This document shows positions 19,056-30,639 of a stretch of DNA of 64,000 bases, piece after piece (positions within the stretch are counted from its first letter, which is position 1; each line of letters starts with the position of its first letter). The stretch comes from Pyrodictiaceae archaeon (lineage in GTDB: Archaea; Thermoproteota; Thermoprotei_A; Sulfolobales; Pyrodictiaceae). Location of the stretch: contig JALVSY010000030.1 of NCBI GenBank assembly GCA_027036135.1, positions 62,001-126,000 on the forward strand, given 5' to 3'. A program made the translations under genes and the position numbers. The notes under the pieces were generated by a model, which was given only the letters and a program-made list of their open reading frames with translations, had not been told where the DNA came from and searched no databases.

Positions 19056-21794
19056 CTATCTTGTTATATTTATAAGCCATATCTCCCTCGTACCATCTGC
19101 CCTGATAAACAAGAGTGATGTCGTGTTATAGGCCTCTAGTCTATCTCCTGGCCCCCAGGGCAGAAACGGCAATGTTACAATATAGGGAATGGTCTCGCCG
19201 GTTCCTAGGTCTATTTGGTATAAGCCCCCTCTCTCAAGTAGTACCCATAGATTGTTACCCGTGTATGCCATGCCGACGGGGTGGCTCCCCGGAGCCAGTC
19301 CAAGGACTTCTATGTTGACACCCGTGCTTGTCGCGGCCGCCTCTATTATGACTGGTTGCCCGCTTGACTTGTTATATGCTATGAAGTAGGCATGCAAGAA
19401 GTCACTAGTATGAGCTGATGCCGGGTAACTATATGGCGGCCCTACTACTAGGTCGCCAGGCAATGTACCGTTTGCGACTAAGGCGCCAGTGTTGAGGCTC
19501 ACTACGCAGTACTGATTACCCCCGGTTAACACTACTAGGTATGCATCCGTACTGGTATTTATGGCCTCTGCATCAACGCCCTGCTGCAGCGCTCGGCAAC
19601 TCGTGGTTAGGAGTGTCCAGTTTCCGCTTGGGCTGAGAGGAGCCGTGTATATACCGGTAGCATTAACTAGGACCAAGAGGTTCCTCGCAGCGCTATAAGT
19701 TATCGCCGCTGTGCCATTGAATACAGTGTTTGCTGGTATATCGTAGAGCTTAGTCAGGGAGGGGAGCTGGTAAACCTCTATGAAGTCTAAGCCGCCCGGC
19801 GCCACCAGTAATGCATTGAATACAGAGCGAGAAGCCTCTTGGTATAGGGCGTTCAACATATCGATGCTTATACTCGCTGGCCCCGGAGCCCTATAGATAA
19901 GCCTAACCTTGACGGTATCGTTAGCCGTGTTTACAAGCCCATCGTAGTTCTCTATAGTTTTGTTCGCGGATAGCGTGCCACCACTATAGCTTCCCGATGC
20001 GAGTAAGAGCCAGGCACCGCTACTCCAGTTATATAGCCATAAAGTATAGCTCCCAGTGGATATATTTGACAAAAATACCGTCTTCGCCCCAAGACTATAC
20101 GGGTTAGTATCCGGAATGGTCGCATAAGCGACCAAGTCAGCGACGTACTCCTTTACAAAGCTTAGACTATAAGCATTGCCGCCATAGACCACGCTATACT
20201 TACCACCAGTAAGGCCGCTAAGAGTATCGTTTAGCACTAGGTCTCCCTGGCTATCATAAACGACTATACGTGCATCCCGTACAATCGGGTGCCAAGTAAC
20301 ATCAAGCACAGCAATACCATCAGTATTAGTAGTATTGCTGGCAACCAGTAACGAGCCACTATAAAGCTCAACAGTCCAGCCCGAAACCGGATTACCGTTA
20401 AGAGTAACCGTGAAGTTAACAAACCTAGGATTAGCATAAGACACTATAAAGTTATCAAAGCTCGCACTCGATCTATAGGTGCCCACGCCAAGCTCTGTCG
20501 GGGTAAAGGTAGTGTCAACAGCACTCACCGATCCAACAAGCCCGTTTGCGTCATAAACGTCTAGTCGCATATAGCCGCTTGAAGGATTGTAATAAACAAG
20601 GGATGTATACCAGATATTGGTATTTACAGTTGCTGGCGCACTATTAAGTAATTCCCATCCAAATAAATTATTAGGATTATAAATCCATATATCTATACTT
20701 GAGTTTTCTACATCTATGCTAAATTCATATAACATTGATGCCGTTGAATTAAAGAGAACTATATCATTATACCCACTCCCCGTATAGATCTGAGACATGA
20801 CATAATAGGGCCTTGAGGGCGCGCTAATACTTGTCGGATATGCTATGTATTCACCGCCTATGCCACCTGTTGTTCTGGTACTTGTTTGTTGTATTCCGGC
20901 TGTCCCGTTATAGCCTATGTTGCTGTTCCAACTCCATGTCCCGCCTATTGTTCCCCAGGTGCCGCTTGTGAATGGGTCTCCGCTCTCAAAGTCCGTGGCA
21001 TAGACTAGATTGTTAGTTATATTGATGCCTTGGAATGTTATTGCTTGCTGTGTATCAATATTCATGGTGTTACCATCGCTTATGTTTAGGCTCACTGCGT
21101 TGCCGCTTACTAGCTCGCCTTCTAGCACATTATATGAGGCTACGTTGCCGTAGTTATTTGTAAGTATTGTTCCGTTTACTATTCCTTTCCATGTCTGTGT
21201 CCAGTCACTGGGCGCTATATCCATAAGGGCTAGGAGGCTTGCCGCGGGAGCTGTTGTGCTGCTTGTTGAGGTGTATAGTTGCTTATTCTTTATTGTTATT
21301 ACTGCTACTGCTGGGCTTGCTGATAGCGTTGCTGATATGGTTATTGGCTGGGTTGCCTGGTTTATTGTGACTTCGAGCGTGTCTCCTGGCGCCATTGTGA
21401 CTGGGAAGCTTGTTACTGTATATGTCGCTCCGCTTGCGCTTGTTATTGTAGCTGTTATCGTGGTGCCTAGCTCGGTGTAGCGGTCTATAGCTAGTGTTGT
21501 CTGGTTGTCCCAGAGTATGTCTATGCTTGTTATCGTGACTGCTCTGGGGGCGTTCGAGGTTATTGTTATCGTCAATGTACCAGTTAGATAGTCGTATGTG
21601 TAGTAGCTCTGTAGGCTTGAGGCTAGTAACTGGGTTGAGATCTTCTCCTGGGCTGCTTGGCTCACTGTGTTGAGTAGTTCTTTTTGCTGCGTGTTGAGGT
21701 AGAAGTAGAGGGCCAGCATTGCGAGTAGGGCTATTGCGAGCAGTACTCCCCCTATTATTGTTGCTATTGCCCTAGATCTTCTTAGCCGAGGCAT
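19056..21794 (-). CDS. Giant pilin-like surface adhesin, 912 residues
   Basis: The N-terminus has a short basic leader (MPRLRRSRA) and a hydrophobic helix at about residues 10-32, as in archaeal type IV pilins processed by a PilD/PibD-like peptidase. Behind it lie modular extracellular parts. Residues 35-250 are Thr/Ser-rich beta sequence. Residues 265-455 are LamG/concanavalin-like (TDFESGDPFTSGTWG, SFDNFIVSYANP). A carboxypeptidase-regulatory-like Ig repeat around 460-530 has NPVSGWTVELYSG. The C-terminal ~230 residues have WD-propeller-like blades. Asn-x-Thr/Ser sites are abundant. It overlaps the end of the small pilin gene by 23 bases. A pilus-tip or S-layer-associated adhesin is inferred. 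Confidence 0.78.
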   Translation of the reverse strand: MPRLRRSRAIATIIGGVLLAIALLAMLALYFYLNTQQKELLNTVSQAAQEKISTQLLASSLQSYYTYDYLTGTLTITITSNAPRAVTITSIDILWDNQTTLAIDRYTELGTTITATITSASGATYTVTSFPVTMAPGDTLEVTINQATQPITISATLSASPAVAVITIKNKQLYTSTSSTTAPAASLLALMDIAPSDWTQTWKGIVNGTILTNNYGNVASYNVLEGELVSGNAVSLNISDGNTMNIDTQQAITFQGINITNNLVYATDFESGDPFTSGTWGTIGGTWSWNSNIGYNGTAGIQQTSTRTTGGIGGEYIAYPTSISAPSRPYYVMSQIYTGSGYNDIVLFNSTASMLYEFSIDVENSSIDIWIYNPNNLFGWELLNSAPATVNTNIWYTSLVYYNPSSGYMRLDVYDANGLVGSVSAVDTTFTPTELGVGTYRSSASFDNFIVSYANPRFVNFTVTLNGNPVSGWTVELYSGSLLVASNTTNTDGIAVLDVTWHPIVRDARIVVYDSQGDLVLNDTLSGLTGGKYSVVYGGNAYSLSFVKEYVADLVAYATIPDTNPYSLGAKTVFLSNISTGSYTLWLYNWSSGAWLLLASGSYSGGTLSANKTIENYDGLVNTANDTVKVRLIYRAPGPASISIDMLNALYQEASRSVFNALLVAPGGLDFIEVYQLPSLTKLYDIPANTVFNGTAAITYSAARNLLVLVNATGIYTAPLSPSGNWTLLTTSCRALQQGVDAEAINTSTDAYLVVLTGGNQYCVVSLNTGALVANGTLPGDLVVGPPYSYPASAHTSDFLHAYFIAYNKSSGQPVIIEAAATSTGVNIEVLGLAPGSHPVGMAYTGNNLWVLLERGGLYQIDLGTGETIPYIVTLPFLPWGPGDRLEAYNTTSLLFIRADGTREIWLINITR

Positions 21795-22227
21795 ATGCTT
21801 CTCCGCCCTCGTACACTATTTTTACATCTGCGTAGCTCTTGCCGCCGAGGTTACAGGTTATTGTCGCTGCTGCGTAGTATGGGAGTACTATGTTATGCGG
21901 TATCAGTGTTTGGCCATTGTTTAGGCTTAGTGTGCACTTGTCGCTCCACAGGGTATTGTTAATGTATATGTCGTATAGTTTTACCGGAGTGTTATCGGTT
22001 ACTATTACTACGTGGAGCACGCCATTACTATCTATATAGGCTAGGGCTATTGTGAGATCTTGCCTCGACTCTATGGTTGTTTTTATCAGCTGTTGTTCTG
22101 CTAGTTGCTGCGCGGTATAAGTGTTCTCAATTATCCTTGAGATTACTAGGGCTCCGACGCCAAGCACTATTATAGCTAGCAGTGCTGCTGAGACGTACTC
22201 GCTTATTCCTCGCAGAGGCCTCCGCAC
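21772..22227 (-). CDS. Archaeal type IV pilin-like protein
   Basis: This 151-residue protein begins with MRRPLRGISEYVSAALLAII. The leader ends in Arg-Gly before a hydrophobic stretch starting ISEYV, the common class III signal of archaeal pilins, where cleavage would fall just before the hydrophobic helix. The remainder is a beta-rich head with two Cys residues (DKCTLS and ITCNLGG) that may form a disulphide. The start is GTG 22227. It is the first gene of a two-gene operon with the 912-residue adhesin. It could be the shaft subunit carrying that protein, which is inference. Confidence 0.8.
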   Translation of the reverse strand: MRRPLRGISEYVSAALLAIIVLGVGALVISRIIENTYTAQQLAEQQLIKTTIESRQDLTIALAYIDSNGVLHVVIVTDNTPVKLYDIYINNTLWSDKCTLSLNNGQTLIPHNIVLPYYAAATITCNLGGKSYADVKIVYEGGEAYASAKKI

Positions 22228-22633: not shown

Positions 22634-23110
22634 TTAATTGTGACGTGCTTTGGGCCAGTTGTTGCGAACAAATCTTTCCCGGTGTTCTTTTCGGAAAACA
22701 TAGCGTATACCGTAGCGTTTCTTAAACGGGAGGCGGAGAGCCTCGATAAGCAGGCGGAGCCAATGGTGACGGGGCTCTTTTTCCTTCGGCGATAAAGCAC
22801 CGGTAGGGCAGGCTTGGACGCAGAGCATGCAGCGCTTACATAGCTCTGGATGAACCATTACTGGTCTATACCTTATGGTTTCCTTTCCGAGTCCTAGTAG
22901 CTTGACTCTCATTGGCCTAGTTTCCCATATTTTGTCCCCGTAGGGGCAGGCAGAGATACACTCATCGCCTCCGCCGCATGTTGGGTAATAGATTACGAAC
23001 GGTGTATTCTCGCGCATATATTGGTAGTAGTATCGCCAACTAGGCACTTCTTCCCTGTCTCCCAAGACCGCCCAGCCTCCATAGGAAACCATCGTGCTGG
23101 AGGAGTGCAA
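22634..23110 (-). CDS. Two-cluster 4Fe-4S ferredoxin-like protein
   Basis: This 158-residue electron carrier has two cluster motifs: CGGGDECISACPYG at about residues 45-58 and CKRCMLCVQACPTGA at about 91-105. The first is atypical, Cys-x5-Cys-x3-Cys-Pro, with the fourth ligand presumably supplied across the fold. The C-terminal ~50 residues are basic and helical (KKRYGIRYVFRKEHRERF). It resembles the crenarchaeal ferredoxin-like subunits attached to DMSO-reductase or sulfur-metabolism complexes. No partner is adjacent, so its redox partner is unknown. Confidence 0.84.
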   Translation of the reverse strand: MHSSSTMVSYGGWAVLGDREEVPSWRYYYQYMRENTPFVIYYPTCGGGDECISACPYGDKIWETRPMRVKLLGLGKETIRYRPVMVHPELCKRCMLCVQACPTGALSPKEKEPRHHWLRLLIEALRLPFKKRYGIRYVFRKEHRERFVRNNWPKARHN

Positions 23111-23465: not shown

Positions 23466-24122
23466 TTACGACTGATGAATAGGGTCTCTATGCAATACGC
23501 TAATTAGCGTTCTGCATCCTTTTCCTAGTCTCGCAAAGAGCGTTTTGTAATAGTCCTCGAGGCTTTGTGACACTATTATTAGGTGTGGTAGCCGTGTGTC
23601 CAGGCAGCTCGCCATTATTGCTCCGAGCTCGTATTGGCGGATAGTGCTTGGCTCATTGTCTATGAGCATATTTATTGTTAATACTTCTTTGTGCTTTGTT
23701 GTAAGTACTATGTCGTGGAGATAACTTGTACCTGTTGAGCCAGTTACTAGGCTGGATACTTGATGTTCGAGGCCAAGGCCTCTAGCTGCCTTCATTACCG
23801 CGGCGTAGGCGTTCTCCTTTGCTCCTTCCTGTCTTGTTTCGCTCTCAATGCCTAGTCCTCTCTGGAGTACGCGTAGTAGTGAGAGAAAGAATGAGCCCTT
23901 GCGGGTTATGTTGTATAGGCATACGCCTCTGCTACAAGTTGTCTCTAGTAGGCCTAGCCTGTGAAGCCTTGTGGCTAGGCGTGAGAAGCTCTGAGGGTTT
24001 AGGTTCGCGAGGTGCATTAGCCTTGTCTTGCGTATGGGGCCTTTATGGCTAAGTATCGACAGTATGTCACCTACTATGATGAGGACGTCTCTGCGGCGTG
24101 ATCGCGTCATTTTCTTGTACAA
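23466..24122 (-). CDS. Winged-helix transcriptional regulator with C-terminal domain
   Basis: Residues about 10-75 form a winged helix: RDVLIIVGDILSILSHKGP, then TRLMHLANLNPQSFSRLATRLHRLGLLE as recognition region, and a wing YNITRKGSFFL. This resembles the HTH_45 class of crenarchaeal regulators. The last ~110 residues form a separate alpha/beta domain of unknown type, with Cys residues at about 82, 87, 182 and 205. The gene lies between the ferredoxin and the DUF5305/signal-peptidase operon in the same orientation. It is the obvious candidate regulator of the surface genes, but there is no direct evidence. Confidence 0.78.
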   Translation of the reverse strand: MYKKMTRSRRRDVLIIVGDILSILSHKGPIRKTRLMHLANLNPQSFSRLATRLHRLGLLETTCSRGVCLYNITRKGSFFLSLLRVLQRGLGIESETRQEGAKENAYAAVMKAARGLGLEHQVSSLVTGSTGTSYLHDIVLTTKHKEVLTINMLIDNEPSTIRQYELGAIMASCLDTRLPHLIIVSQSLEDYYKTLFARLGKGCRTLISVLHRDPIHQS

Positions 24123-24260: not shown

Positions 24261-25256
24261 TCATTGATTATCTTCCTTATCCGTACTTGTTTTTGCGCAG
24301 AGGAAGAGCCTCGCTATAGGTGTACAGGCTAGTCCTTCTTCTCGGCTGAGCAATAGTGGTTGACCTGTTCTCTCCGCTAGTCTCGCTACGTCTTGGATAC
24401 CCGTTGCCTCGACGTAGTCTCTTGGAGGTGTTTTTAGCTCTATTACCGGGACTGTTAGTGATTCTAGGATCTCTACTGGGGTTCTTCGGTGCGCTCGGGC
24501 GTAGAGCACTGAACCCGTTAATGCCAGGGCTATTCCAGCAGAGAACGCTGCTAGTAGCAGCTTCCTCGTCGCTGTTGTGTCCCGTATTTGGTTGCCCTGA
24601 CTGGTTGTTGCTGGGAGTGTTATTGTTTCTGTTCCTTGGCTACTGGTGACTGTTACTTTGTAGAGGGGCTCGTTGTACCCCAGGCTTATCTTTATTGAGG
24701 GGTTCATCGTTATCGTCTTGTTCGCTATTCTTGTGGCTGCCTCTAGTCTTACTTCGAGGCTCATATCGGTTGTCACTGGTAGCCCGGTCTCGCGTAGCAG
24801 CTTTAGTGAAGTGTTTCTCGCTTCCCCTAGTCCTAGGTCTACGATTATCCTTGCTCCCGGGGCTAGTGCTCCCTTGGTCACGTTTAACTTCACTGAGAAG
24901 GGGCCTATGTTTAACTGCCTCGTCAACGTATAGTGTATGTCCCGTGCCCCTATACTTGGCGGCATCTTTAGCTCTAGCTTGAATATGCCATAGGCTCTAT
25001 GCAGGAGTTTTACTGGTAGCGCTCCCTGGGATAGTATCTCAGCCGTACCGTTGGGGTATATGAGGCTCTTCTCTGTCACCGCGTAGAGGCTTGCCTGTGC
25101 AGAGTACCGGAGAGTAACGGTGTTGTTGCTCTGGGCTGTTGCAGTGGCTGGCTTACTCGTGACTAGGAGACCCGTAGCAGCGAAGGCTGCTATGCCTAGC
25201 CCGAGGAGTATCAATGCTATTGCTACTGTGTAAGTGGCTGGTCTTTTCCCAGACAA
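24261..25256 (-). CDS. DUF5305-like membrane protein
   Basis: This 331-residue protein is anchored by an N-terminal helix (about 10-30) and a second helix around 232-253. Between them, a ~190-residue extracellular beta-rich domain begins with TVTLRYSAQASLYAVTEKSL. After the second helix a ~75-residue cytosolic tail contains the segment RTPVEILESLTVPVIELKTPP. This topology and neighbourhood match the DUF5305 family found beside archaeal type I signal peptidases. It is directly downstream of the signal peptidase gene in the same orientation. It may help assemble or anchor the exported filaments, which is inference. Confidence 0.72.
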   Translation of the reverse strand: MSGKRPATYTVAIALILLGLGIAAFAATGLLVTSKPATATAQSNNTVTLRYSAQASLYAVTEKSLIYPNGTAEILSQGALPVKLLHRAYGIFKLELKMPPSIGARDIHYTLTRQLNIGPFSVKLNVTKGALAPGARIIVDLGLGEARNTSLKLLRETGLPVTTDMSLEVRLEAATRIANKTITMNPSIKISLGYNEPLYKVTVTSSQGTETITLPATTSQGNQIRDTTATRKLLLAAFSAGIALALTGSVLYARAHRRTPVEILESLTVPVIELKTPPRDYVEATGIQDVARLAERTGQPLLLSREEGLACTPIARLFLCAKTSTDKEDNQ

Positions 25257-25389
25257 CTCAGTTCAACACACAGTGGATTGAATGGTTCCCCGGGAAACGC
25301 TAACTGAGAAAAACAAGAGCTGGGTCCCGGGGAACGATCTCCAGGGATATACTCGTGGTAGCTATTATTCAATTTTCCGGCTCTCCATG

Positions 25390-26610
25390 CTATGTTACTA
25401 CTCTCTCACGGAGTGAACGTACAAGAGCTGGGAGCATTATCAGTGCTATGATTGTTGCTAATAGTAGCATTTGCGCAGCAAATACGTCTCCTCCTAGGAT
25501 CCTTGCAACCGTTATTAGTGGTAGGCCCGCATAAGGTATGCGAAGATATAGCTTGCCTAGAACTTGTCTCGTAGTTATCGGGTTATCTGGTGCATTATTC
25601 GCATCGCCTTTTGTCACTAACTGGTTCCTAGTAACGTTGATTACTCTGTGAAGAATTATCATCCCAGAGTACTTGTAGGCTACCACATCACCAACACGTG
25701 GTTCTTGCTGGATCTTCTTCACAACCACTATGTCTCCTATCCTTATACTGGGCTCCATGCTCCCGCTGAGTACTATCATTGGCCAGTATCCTTTCCAGAG
25801 CACGAGGAGGAAAAGGAAAACCGCTAGCGCGGTTGCTATGATGGTTCCGGGCCCAACATTCCTCTCCCCGGTGTTGCCACGTATCAGCGCTACACGCGAA
25901 CTCGTATAGAGCACTATTAGCATTGATGGAAGCATTACTAGGAAACTAGACAAGGCCGACGGAAGGTAGGGAAGGAGAGGAGAAACCATTACGGGGAGCC
26001 TTATTCCAAGCACGTAGCCTATAGCCAGGCTCCTAGAGCCGTACCGTAGCAGCGTAATGGTACTAGCAAGGAGAGAGAAGAGAGCAACTAAGCCCAAACC
26101 AGTATTCATCAGCACTTGTCTATTAGCTCCAAGACCTATTTCGGAGACATTGACAAACATGTCGAGAAATACTAAGAAGCCAAGCAAGCCAAGCAGTAAC
26201 CGTCTCACCCCATGAGTTCCTCGGCTAAGCAACTCACCCAATCCCATGACGGCTACCACTATTAGAGGCGCATCCATAGCGAAGTTAAGCAAGCCAGTAA
26301 CAATACCTGGCGCATAGCTATTAACCGCGAACCCATTGATTAGCGCAAAGGCAACTAACAAGCTATACCATAGACTAAGAGCGGTCATAACCGCTGCCGA
26401 AAGCTCCTTTCCAAGAGGGGCCGCACTTCCTCGATGACTATGAAGTAGAAGCGCTAACAACATTGTGGCTAGGAGAGCCTCTAGGAGCCTAGGATAACCA
26501 AGCAGATTTACGCCTAGAAGGACATTACTCACTAAGACAAATTCTGCGCTAGCCAACGCTACTATAGCAAGACGCATTACCACTTCATTATGGCCCATGA
26601 GCATTCCCAC
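25390..26610 (-). CDS. Archaeal signal peptidase I (S26B) with polytopic membrane domain
   Basis: Signal peptidase I removes leader peptides outside the membrane. The catalytic serine is in LSGSMEPSIRIGDIVV at about residue 284. The ER/archaeal-type catalytic His, replacing the bacterial Lys, lies in IILHRVI at about 321. The acidic GDANNAPDN motif follows at about 338-346. Unusually, residues 1-265 add about seven predicted hydrophobic segments before the catalytic domain, whereas housekeeping enzymes have one. The gene neighbours DUF5305 and two TasA-like proteins, so it is probably a dedicated SipW-like peptidase. The start is ATG 26610. Confidence 0.87.
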   Translation of the reverse strand: MGMLMGHNEVVMRLAIVALASAEFVLVSNVLLGVNLLGYPRLLEALLATMLLALLLHSHRGSAAPLGKELSAAVMTALSLWYSLLVAFALINGFAVNSYAPGIVTGLLNFAMDAPLIVVAVMGLGELLSRGTHGVRRLLLGLLGFLVFLDMFVNVSEIGLGANRQVLMNTGLGLVALFSLLASTITLLRYGSRSLAIGYVLGIRLPVMVSPLLPYLPSALSSFLVMLPSMLIVLYTSSRVALIRGNTGERNVGPGTIIATALAVFLFLLVLWKGYWPMIVLSGSMEPSIRIGDIVVVKKIQQEPRVGDVVAYKYSGMIILHRVINVTRNQLVTKGDANNAPDNPITTRQVLGKLYLRIPYAGLPLITVARILGGDVFAAQMLLLATIIALIMLPALVRSLRERVVT

Positions 26611-26709
26611 GCTTATTAAAACTAGGGGTATCGATTTAGGAAAGAGGGAAGGAGCACCCTCCTTCCCGGGAACAAAACTCTCATTGACTATGTATTAGTT
26701 AGCACTGTG

Positions 26710-27405
26710 TTATCGCGGTGTTGGCGTGCTGTATTCGTTCCATTGGACTGCTTGGAGTAGTACTAGGAAGTTCAGTGTCGTGCCCTGCGGGGCTGATTGT
26801 AGTACTGTTAGGTCTAGGCTTATGTCTGCACATTGGCCTGGATGTAACTGTGTGCCGAAGTTATCTCCCCACCATATGGTTATGTCTGGTGATGTATCGT
26901 TATTTAGATCTACTTCCACGCCCTGGTTCAGTTCTTGCTCGTTTAGCTCATAGTAGTACTGGCCATCTACTTGTACTCTCCATATCTTTATTGGTATAGT
27001 GCCATCGTTACACACCTTGAATTCTATATGAGTATAATACCATGGATACACATTAACAAGTGTAATGTTTAGTGCGTCATAGTCGCCATCACCGTCAGTG
27101 TCTACTAGTGTTACGTTAGTGCATCCGACATCCTTGCCTTCGGGCGGTGATAGTTGCTCTGCCCCTGGTTGCGGATAGTATGATGCGTTCCAGTCATAAC
27201 CTCCGCTCTGGCCATAGCCTGGCTGCAACCCACATGCATCTAGAAGTATTAGTGAACCATTCTGTGTAGCGAAGTCAACTTCACCAGTATTTGCTACTCC
27301 GTTTACTTTGAGTGTCTGGCTCCACATTGAGTACGCTAAACCGATCGATACTATCATTATTGCTGCTACTGCTAGTGCTATGCTCATTCCTCTACTTATG
27401 TACAT
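26710..27405 (-). CDS. TasA/CalY-like secreted filament subunit (intact copy)
   Basis: The signal sequence is residues about 5-25 (MSIALAVAAIMIVSIGLAYS), followed by MWSQTLKVNGVANTGEVDF. A short hydrophobic leader, a Trp-Ser pair, then a T-x-x-V-N-G-x-x-N-T-G-E-V strand is the SipW-cognate pattern of TasA and CalY and of archaeal bundling-pilus proteins. The 200-residue mature part is beta-rich, with four Cys and an Asp-rich loop DTDGDGDYDAL that looks calcium-binding. It follows the broken paralogue at 27553-28104 and lies upstream of the signal peptidase. Filament formation is inferred from the family. Confidence 0.82.
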   Translation of the reverse strand: MYISRGMSIALAVAAIMIVSIGLAYSMWSQTLKVNGVANTGEVDFATQNGSLILLDACGLQPGYGQSGGYDWNASYYPQPGAEQLSPPEGKDVGCTNVTLVDTDGDGDYDALNITLVNVYPWYYTHIEFKVCNDGTIPIKIWRVQVDGQYYYELNEQELNQGVEVDLNNDTSPDITIWWGDNFGTQLHPGQCADISLDLTVLQSAPQGTTLNFLVLLQAVQWNEYSTPTPR

Positions 27406-27450
27406 GACTTATCCAACTCACATAGTTACGAGGGATCTATGCCCTGGGTT

Positions 27451-27482
27451 AAGAGCAGAGAGGCTTGCCTCCTCTCATGCTC
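27451..27482 (-). terminator. Inverted repeat between the two TasA-like genes
   Basis: AGAGCA...GAGAGG and CCTCCTCTC...TGCTCT can pair as a stem of about 12 pairs. In the minus-strand direction it lies about 70 bases after the stop of the upstream TasA-like gene and about 45 bases before the next start. It may separate the two transcripts or act as an mRNA stability hairpin. There is no T-run directly after it. Confidence 0.35.
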
Positions 27483-27552
27483 TGAGTCTTGGTGGAAAAA
27501 TCTTGTACCAGTTGCTTACTTTCATATTTATTGACTAGCCTTCTATGCTACG

Positions 27553-28104
27553 TTACGGGCCTGTTACTTCGTTCCACTGAGCAAATGTCAATGTTACCGT
27601 GAAGCTATAGGATGCGTTCTCGTCTGCGCTCTGGGGCACGAATACTGAGATCTGGTATGTGCTTGTCTCATCTGGGTGCATCTGGGTTGATGTCGGTGTG
27701 ACTAGGTTTACTTGTAGTGGGTCGTCGGCCACGACTGATGAGTTGTATAGCTTAACCGGTATTGTACCTATATTTGTTATGTTTAAGGTTATTACTGGGT
27801 TGTAGCCTGGGTACGCGTTGTTTATCGTTATGTTTAGGGTTATGGCGTTGTTATCTGCGTCTACCTCTGCTACTTCTATGTTGCAGCCAGCTACGTCCTT
27901 GTTCTCCTCGTTATGGAACGTTGAGTTCGGTAGTTATGGATCAGCTCCATTATCGCTGCAGCTCCAGCCAGTAAACGCTACTTTTACTTCGCCAGTATTG
28001 ACAACGCCGTTTACCTTTATTGTCTCGCTCCACATCGAGTAGGCTCCTATTATTGACGCTAGCATTACTCCTACAATGGCTAGTCCAAATATAGCTGCTT
28101 TCAT
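27553..28104 (-). pseudogene. TasA/CalY-like subunit paralogue interrupted by in-frame TAA
   Basis: One continuous frame of 184 codons runs from ATG 28104 to TAA 27553-27555. It encodes a signal sequence (IFGLAIVGVMLASIIGAYS), then MWSETIKVNGVVNTGEVKV and a beta-rich domain ending FAQWNEVTGP, homologous to the neighbour at 26710. A single TAA at 27934-27936 lies after CSDNGADP and before LPNSTFHNEENKDV. The frame is the same on both sides, so this is a nonsense change and not a shift. Coding quality after the stop remains excellent, pointing to a recent mutation, a sequencing error or readthrough. Confidence 0.85.
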
Positions 28105-29663: not shown

Positions 29664-30639
29664 ATGGAGTACACGGAGCTAGGTAGGACTGGGCTACGGG
29701 TCTCGCGGATAGGGCTGGGCGCCTGGCAATTCACGGAGGCTTGGGGCCTAACGGAGTATGCTAAGGCCCGCGAGGTCGTGAAGAGAGCACTTGAGCACAG
29801 GATAAACTTCTTCGATACCGCTATGGTGTACGGGCTTGGCATGAGCGAGACCTTTCTCGGAAGAGCACTAAGAGAGGCAGGTGCTAAGCGCGATGAGATC
29901 GTGGTCTCAACCAAGATTCCCGGCGAGTTCCTCAACCCAGGCGACATCTACAAGGCCATTGAGAAGAGCTTGAAGAACCTCGGCTTCAGCTACGTCGATA
30001 TATTGCTTGCTCACTGGCCCCCCTGCTGGCACAACTTCCCTACATGCGAGTATGCGAGAGCGCTTGAAAAAGCTAGTAGAGCTCGGCAAGGTAGGCTACC
30101 TAGGCCTAAGCGACTACCCCGTCGAACTCATCGAGGCGTTTCGACACTGCCTGGCAAGGCACGATGTACAGGTGCTGCAGCTGCGCTACAACCTGGTTGA
30201 GAGATGGGCTGAGAAGCAGCACATACCCTATGCTGAGAGGCACGACATGAGCGTACAGGCTTGGAGCCCGATAGCTAAGGGAGCGTTAACGGGCAAGTAC
30301 GAGCTAGGTAAGCTCGAGTTCCAGGACATTAGGGCCCGGGAACCAATATTTCACCCAGAGAACTACTCCAAGGTGTGAAGACTGGTTGAGCTTCTAAGAG
30401 AGATAGGGAAAAGGTACAACAAGAAGCCAGTACAGGTAGCGCTTAACTGGCTAATAATGAGTAGCCCTGCTGTAATACCAATACCTGGCGCAAAGAGACC
30501 CGAGCAAGTAGATGACCTGGTAGGAGCAACCGGGTGGAGACTAAGCTATAGTGATTGGCGCCTACTAGAGGAGGAGTCTAGGCGGATAGAGATTAGCTAC
30601 TCGGTGTTTTACCGGGAGAAAAAGACCGAGATAAAGTAG
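29664..30639 (+). pseudogene. Aldo/keto reductase with one frameshift and one in-frame TGA
   Basis: The protein begins MEYTELGRTGLRVSRIGLG and keeps the aldo/keto reductase landmarks FFDTAMVYGLG (catalytic Asp and Tyr) and YVDILLAHWP. The frame shifts at the five-A run 30067-30071. Removing one A restores ALEKLVELGKVGYLGLSDY. The second frame then continues through QAWSPIAKGALTG to a TGA at 30376-30378, after which the same frame encodes RLVELLREIGKRYNKKPVQ and PIPGAKRPEQV to TAG 30639. A Trp codon at the TGA would give a normal ~325-residue NADP-dependent oxidoreductase. It is a recent pseudogene or has sequencing errors. Confidence 0.88.

Follow-up and report, generated by a model that had tools for sequence, protein, structure and literature searches.

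Extracellular fibres of the TasA, CalY and AbpX types are found in both archaea and bacteria, and the ways in which archaeal cells process, nucleate and anchor them are little known. One example is AbpX of Pyrodictium abyssi, which is described as an ABP-like, donor-strand-exchanged bundling fibre (PMC11952670), and a second is in Bacillus cereus, where TasA and CalY co-assemble with a chaperone-like partner, CapP (PMC13082335). TasA has a phenylalanine at the P2' position of its cleavage site and is processed by SipW, whereas Escherichia coli LepB cleaves it only poorly (PMC10269814). Here we describe a locus in a 64,000-nucleotide stretch (the window) of the genome of a Pyrodictiaceae archaeon (GCA_027036135.1, contig JALVSY010000030.1, positions 62,001 to 126,000 of the forward strand), in which two related secreted proteins, designated Par1 and Par2, are encoded beside a polytopic signal peptidase, a DUF5305-like membrane protein and a winged-helix protein. 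From the comparisons below it is probable that the locus is dedicated to exporting and assembling an extracellular fibre of the AbpX/TasA superfamily, most likely a donor-strand fibre of two subunits. The module is genuine and conserved, being shared by many thermophilic archaea and some anaerobic bacteria, and its most interesting parts are the link to DUF5305 and the sharing of the system with Bacillota.

The genes are transcribed on the minus strand in the order Par1, Par2, signal peptidase (406 amino acids, aa), DUF5305-like protein (331 aa) and winged-helix protein (218 aa), and their coordinates are collected in Table 1. Par1 and Par2 share a pattern consisting of a hydrophobic leader, A-Y-S, M-W-S and x-(I/L)-K-V-N-G-V-x-N-T-G-E-V, and an original prediction, made from the letters of the window alone, had taken them to be paralogous secreted proteins with a common start. 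The paralogy and the motif hold, with Par2 matching Par1 within the genome at E 1e-8 and the two families aligning end to end over 188 columns in a profile-profile comparison (100% probability, E 4e-44), but Par1 is not an open gene in this genome (see below). The subunit tree separates Par1 from Par2 (85/92 at the split), although it is too weak to place AbpX or to date the duplication, and the two are an ancient pair. An orphan distant paralogue of 190 aa, which is His-rich ('AALWNLMLQVQGVVKTG'), is encoded elsewhere in the same genome, away from the module (L007:4206-4778; C30:267223-267390).

The nearest solved protein for both subunits is AbpX (PDB 9sj2). Profile searches of the PDB matched it with the Par1 family (E 9e-16) and with the Par2 family (E 5e-7, limited to the core beta domain), no fibre-protein chain other than AbpX was matched by either family profile, and Par1 itself, read with an X at the stop, matches AbpX at E 3e-7. 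AbpX is encoded in one of the genomes compared (G014; 100% identity over the 163-residue PDB chain), about 220 bases upstream of a gene for a 380-aa peptidase homologous to that in the window. The deposited chain starts Q-W-S-E-T-L, which puts the conserved tryptophan at P2', and the same tryptophan follows the predicted cut in every aligned sequence of Par1 (33) and Par2 (38). In Par2 this cut lies between AYS and MW after residue 26, and the protein has a QWNEY motif near its C-terminus. Immediately past the cut, the mature N-terminal segment is strongly conserved in both families.

The original prediction read the locus as a SipW/TasA-like export module and named searches with TasA/camelysin and SipW-signal hidden Markov models as a check, and these searches went against it. 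Par2 scores 11.5 bits with the camelysin family PF12389 (gathering cut-off 22.5) and the Par1 pieces do not match it; no protein in this whole genome exceeds the PF12389 cut-off, and no window protein matches the model of the SipW-dependent signal peptide, TIGR04088, for which 6 of 33 Par1 orthologues give weak matches (best E 5e-4). In profile-profile comparisons the Par1 family aligns with archaeal camelysins over 60 columns (93%, E 3e-7). Camelysins above the Pfam cut-off are present in 3 of 300 Thermoproteota genomes, two of which (L182 and L184) have a compact camelysin-peptidase-DUF5305 operon. What stands of that reading is therefore homology (to AbpX and camelysins) and synteny, but not strict membership of the TasA family by curated cut-offs.

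An AlphaFold2 model of Par2 (pLDDT 88, pTM 0.82) has about ten short strands and none in the first 18 mature residues, the first ten of which are of low confidence; this fits a free donor strand, although it is no proof of one. When the model was compared with the PDB using Foldseek, nothing was found below E 0.001, and the TasA fibre 8aur was at rank 38 (E 0.09, probability 0.33). A structure unlike TasA had been named beforehand as a refutation of the original prediction, and so weak a match neither upholds that prediction nor refutes it. Par1 and Par2 could instead be SipW-type secreted surface proteins, such as S-layer-associated proteins, adhesins or binding proteins, that are served by their own peptidase without polymerising through donor strands. 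This would agree with the lack of a significant fold match between Par2 and any solved fibre of the donor-strand kind, with the confinement of the match between Par2 and AbpX to the core domain, and with some relatives in which the domain is fused to others in long proteins (418-502 aa). We consider it unlikely, as AbpX is itself reported to be a donor-strand fibre (PMC11952670), the segment after the cut is strongly conserved in both proteins, and the Par2 model lacks a strand just where a free donor strand is expected.

Several observations nonetheless count against a fibre module of this kind. Both subunits are below the camelysin and SipW-signal cut-offs, the Par2 family aligns only weakly with camelysins (34% in the profile-profile comparison), and Foldseek found no significant counterpart in the PDB for the Par2 model, TasA and the other solved fibres included, or for the DUF5305 model. 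In P. abyssi, the abpX and peptidase genes have neither Par2 nor DUF5305 beside them, so these two are not strictly needed for an AbpX fibre, and in the genome described here Par1 has a premature stop.

The peptidase had been predicted to be a signal peptidase I with about seven extra membrane helices, and this is borne out by its score of 84 bits with the archaeal/ER-type signal peptidase I family TIGR02228 (cut-off 52) and by seven hydrophobic segments that precede the usual N-terminal anchor; one more segment is C-terminal. The catalytic serine, histidine and aspartate are invariant in 15 of 15 sequences, as is D342. Its relatives in the PDB are SEC11A/C, and it scores 57.7 bits with the SipW equivalog NF046067, for which the cut-off is 190. 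The tryptophan at P2' is an aromatic residue like that of TasA and of a type poorly handled by an E. coli-type peptidase, which suggests a plain reason why a dedicated peptidase is retained. Such polytopic peptidases also occur outside this module, however: a second locus that has one (L085) encodes an unrelated, widely conserved secreted protein with an IHPTYxxxYYxN motif and no PDB match.

We propose, from homology and motifs, that Par1 and Par2 would be exported by Sec and cleaved by the neighbouring SipW-like peptidase just before Met-Trp. By analogy with known donor-strand fibres, the freed N-terminal strand (MWSxTLxVNxxVxTGEV) would then fill the open groove of the following subunit. Par1, which is AbpX-like, and Par2, which probably binds calcium, would probably be major and minor subunits or form a heteropolymer, like TasA and CalY of B. 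cereus. The DUF5305 protein, with its two membrane helices and outside beta domain, probably helps, next to the peptidase, to anchor or assemble the fibre, and the winged-helix protein is likely to regulate the module.

Among 84,980 species genomes scanned there were 45 module loci (the ratios that follow count only loci where contig ends allow the test). Par1 directly precedes Par2 in 42 of 42 loci, the peptidase is present in 42 of 43, DUF5305 in 24 of 29, and a winged-helix protein of this type is encoded nearby in 25 of 34. Forty-three of the 45 loci are in records named Desulfurococcales, Sulfolobales and kin, or carrying broader Thermoproteota labels, and the remaining two are in a Candidatus Culexmicrobium and a Syntrophomonadaceae bacterium. 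The four-gene order is kept across families, more than chance would give, and the co-occurrence of the four genes in related genomes, which had been named beforehand as a check on the module, is found. Among 39 related genomes, Par2 is present in 18 and the Par1 family in 17, and all nine with DUF5305 (PF17231) above threshold carry the subunits. Across the phylum, PF17231 was found in 23 of 250 genomes, and when 20 of these DUF5305 loci were read more widely, about half had peptidase and/or Par-like genes beside them, with several others cut by contig ends. DUF5305 is absent from the loci in G034 and G014 that encode the weaker relatives of the Par proteins.

The 331-aa protein, which had been described as DUF5305-like, scores only 20.7 bits with PF17231 (gathering cut-off 29). 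Its close family can nevertheless be aligned over 290 columns with proteins that clearly belong to DUF5305, among them that of Syntrophomonadaceae (97.6%, E 4e-12). The alignment takes in most of the protein, with the second helix and the cytosolic domain, and together with the two-helix layout and the position after the peptidase it upholds the assignment. In the predicted model (pLDDT 85), transmembrane helices at residues 7-33 and 228-255 enclose a beta domain (37-223) and are followed by a small inner domain; we infer that the beta domain is outside and the small domain cytosolic. A fold search of this model against the PDB gave no significant match, and no paper naming DUF5305 was found in the literature searched.

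DUF5305 is also present in 27 of 299 Bacillota genomes. A signal peptidase of this kind is encoded within ~10 kb in 19 of 20 Bacillota DUF5305 loci, and in 15 it lies no more than two genes away from DUF5305. Fifteen of the 20 loci encode proteins matching the archaeal Par1 or Par2 profiles (best E 1e-38). One bacterial locus (L131) is surrounded by riboflavin and other ordinary bacterial genes, and so does not have the appearance of a misplaced archaeal contig. This conserved neighbourhood ties DUF5305, a family of unknown function, to these fibres in both archaea and Bacillota, and the presence of the module in Bacillota makes the role of DUF5305 approachable in a bacterium instead of a hyperthermophile. 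A broader proposal, which we offer tentatively and regard as close to evenly balanced but on the doubtful side, is that systems with DUF5305 and the polytopic peptidase make up a second branch of the SipW/TasA type that spans both domains (in Thermoproteota and Bacillota), in which DUF5305 would be a membrane-bound assembly or anchoring platform with the role that TapA or CapP has in Bacillus, and two ancient subunit types would form a calcium-stabilised heterofibre.

Par2 has two acidic loops that, judging from their motifs, probably bind calcium. Residues D102, D104, D106, G107 and D110 of the first are invariant in 13 orthologues and D166, D170 and D174 of the second are invariant in the orthologue alignment, and the orthologues also keep W-W-G-D-N-F-G and W-N-E-Y. 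The conserved neighbourhood predicts a two-subunit, probably calcium-binding fibre. The original prediction also suggested a relation to the fibre or tubule networks of Pyrodictium; the nearest known relative is the AbpX bundling fibre, and no link to the tubules, whose protein is CanA, was found. That the module makes Pyrodictium-type cannulae, or that it is directly related to CanA, seems to us highly improbable. The organism is of the same family, both systems have secreted beta proteins, and cannulae are called donor-strand and calcium dependent in the title of a preprint cited in PMC11952670. However, searches of the PDB with the profiles of both Par families returned AbpX and no chain named CanA (whether CanA is present in that copy of the PDB was not checked), and in a study of CanA the only homologues were other Can proteins and the DxDxDG motif was absent (PMC12326000), whereas Par2 has this motif.

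The stop in Par1 is at codon 57 and leaves reading pieces of 56 and 126 codons. The genome sequence has the same letters as the window throughout this region, and so provides no independent check of the stop. In two relatives of the same genus (G003 and G004) Par1 is open, 85% and 76% identical, and has a conserved residue at the stop position. Comparison with a same-genus relative gives a dN/dS of 0.12 for Par1, and of 0.10 and 0.12 before and after the stop; constraint is thus about equal on either side, and the change is either very recent or an error in the assembly, which is a 40-contig draft. Par1 is accordingly either a young pseudogene or a draft error. Recoding of the stop was rejected because relatives with an open frame use an ordinary codon at this site, and because a different stop codon breaks the second interrupted gene of this genome. 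It is quite possible, if somewhat doubtful, that the system is decaying in this lineage: Par1 would be a recent pseudogene, and normal fibres would no longer be produced from the locus. This would concern the strain only, and is compatible with a fibre module. Besides the TAA itself, two other genes point in this direction: the neighbouring aldo/keto reductase gene (29664-30639, plus strand) is split by a frameshift and a further stop and is intact (324 aa) in G004, and the secreted-protein gene at the second polytopic-peptidase locus (L085, in the same genome outside the window, C30:18860-19450) has a TAG just after its signal peptide and is intact in relatives. Against decay are the similar constraint before and after the Par1 stop, the four other module genes, which are open and constrained by the same dN/dS comparison, the intact state of the majority of genes comparable with G004, and the possibility of a sequence error in the draft.

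The winged-helix protein matches HTH_45 (E 3e-8), which together with its linkage to the module agrees with the regulator that had been predicted to follow it. We note that TTCCC(C)GGGAA palindromes are present in both gaps beside the peptidase gene (25286-25334 and 26662-26673) and are a possible operator for this protein; the near-palindrome TTCCCCGGGAA, which is present in both of these gaps, is over-represented (38 against 12 expected), although a palindrome is counted on both strands. Intergenic hairpins were considered as attenuators and rejected, their stability being no greater than that of shuffled sequences (z -0.4 to -0.7). Beyond the winged-helix gene there is a small 4Fe-4S ferredoxin-like protein (22634-23110, minus strand) and, at 19056-22227 on the same strand, a pair of genes whose products (151 and 912 aa) start like type IV pilins; they are syntenic in G003 and G004 and possibly form a second surface-appendage cluster.

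Table 1. Predicted features of the Par1-Par2 locus (positions in the window).
Feature	Coordinates	Strand	Basis
Par1, AbpX-like secreted fibre subunit (predicted)	27553..28104	-	183 codons, in-frame TAA at 27934-27936; AbpX match, intact orthologues
Par1 signal peptide	28036..28104	-	Predicted cleavage between AYS and MW after residue 23; Trp at P2' invariant
Par2, second AbpX/TasA-like subunit (predicted), 231 aa	26710..27405	-	Profile match to AbpX; predicted structure
Par2 DxDGDGDxD loop, residues 102-110, probable Ca2+ site	27076..27102	-	Conservation; binding suggested by motif
Par2 second acidic loop, D-L-x-G-D-G-x-x-D, residues 166-174	26884..26910	-	Conservation; calcium binding suggested by motif
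Polytopic SipW-like signal peptidase I, 406 aa	25390..26610	-	TIGR02228 score, nine hydrophobic segments, catalytic S284/H321/D336
DUF5305-type membrane protein, 331 aa	24261..25256	-	Profile-profile homology, predicted model
Winged-helix (HTH_45/Sso10a-like) protein, 218 aa, likely regulator	23466..24122	-	HTH_45 match, linkage to module

The locus can be compared with five described systems. The TasA/CalY-SipW systems of Bacillus (tapA-sipW-tasA, and sipW-calY1-bc_1280-calY2; PMC10151520) likewise pair a dedicated archaeal-type peptidase with beta-rich subunits whose P2' residue is aromatic, and in B. cereus there are also two paralogous subunits that co-assemble (PMC13082335). They differ in that no relative of TapA or CapP was seen at the window locus and DUF5305 is absent from the B. 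subtilis control genome; the window peptidase has seven extra membrane segments and misses the SipW cut-off, and the window subunits fail that of PF12389. The sipW-bsaA operon of Clostridium perfringens gives very stable extracellular filaments (PMC7395162), and the BsaA family is weakly matched by 3 of 33 Par1 orthologues, in one case with a score far below the family cut-off; DUF5305 is not described there. Among archaea, the AbpA bundling pili of Pyrobaculum calidifontis are crenarchaeal TasA-like donor-strand fibres (as cited in PMC9674648), but the PDB searches with the Par1 and Par2 profiles matched AbpX and no other fibre chain. The thread filament of Sulfolobus (Saci_0406) is also an archaeal donor-strand fibre exported by Sec and signal peptidase I (PMC9715654), although it has an isopeptide bond and a YYY motif, no dedicated peptidase is reported for it, and it has no sequence match to the Par proteins. 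AbpX of P. abyssi (PDB 9SJ2, 9RHP) has a homologous subunit, a Q/M-W-S mature N-terminus and a polytopic peptidase gene next to it. There it stands alone with the peptidase, whereas the window has two ancient subunit types together with DUF5305 and the winged-helix protein, and Par2 adds the acidic loops.

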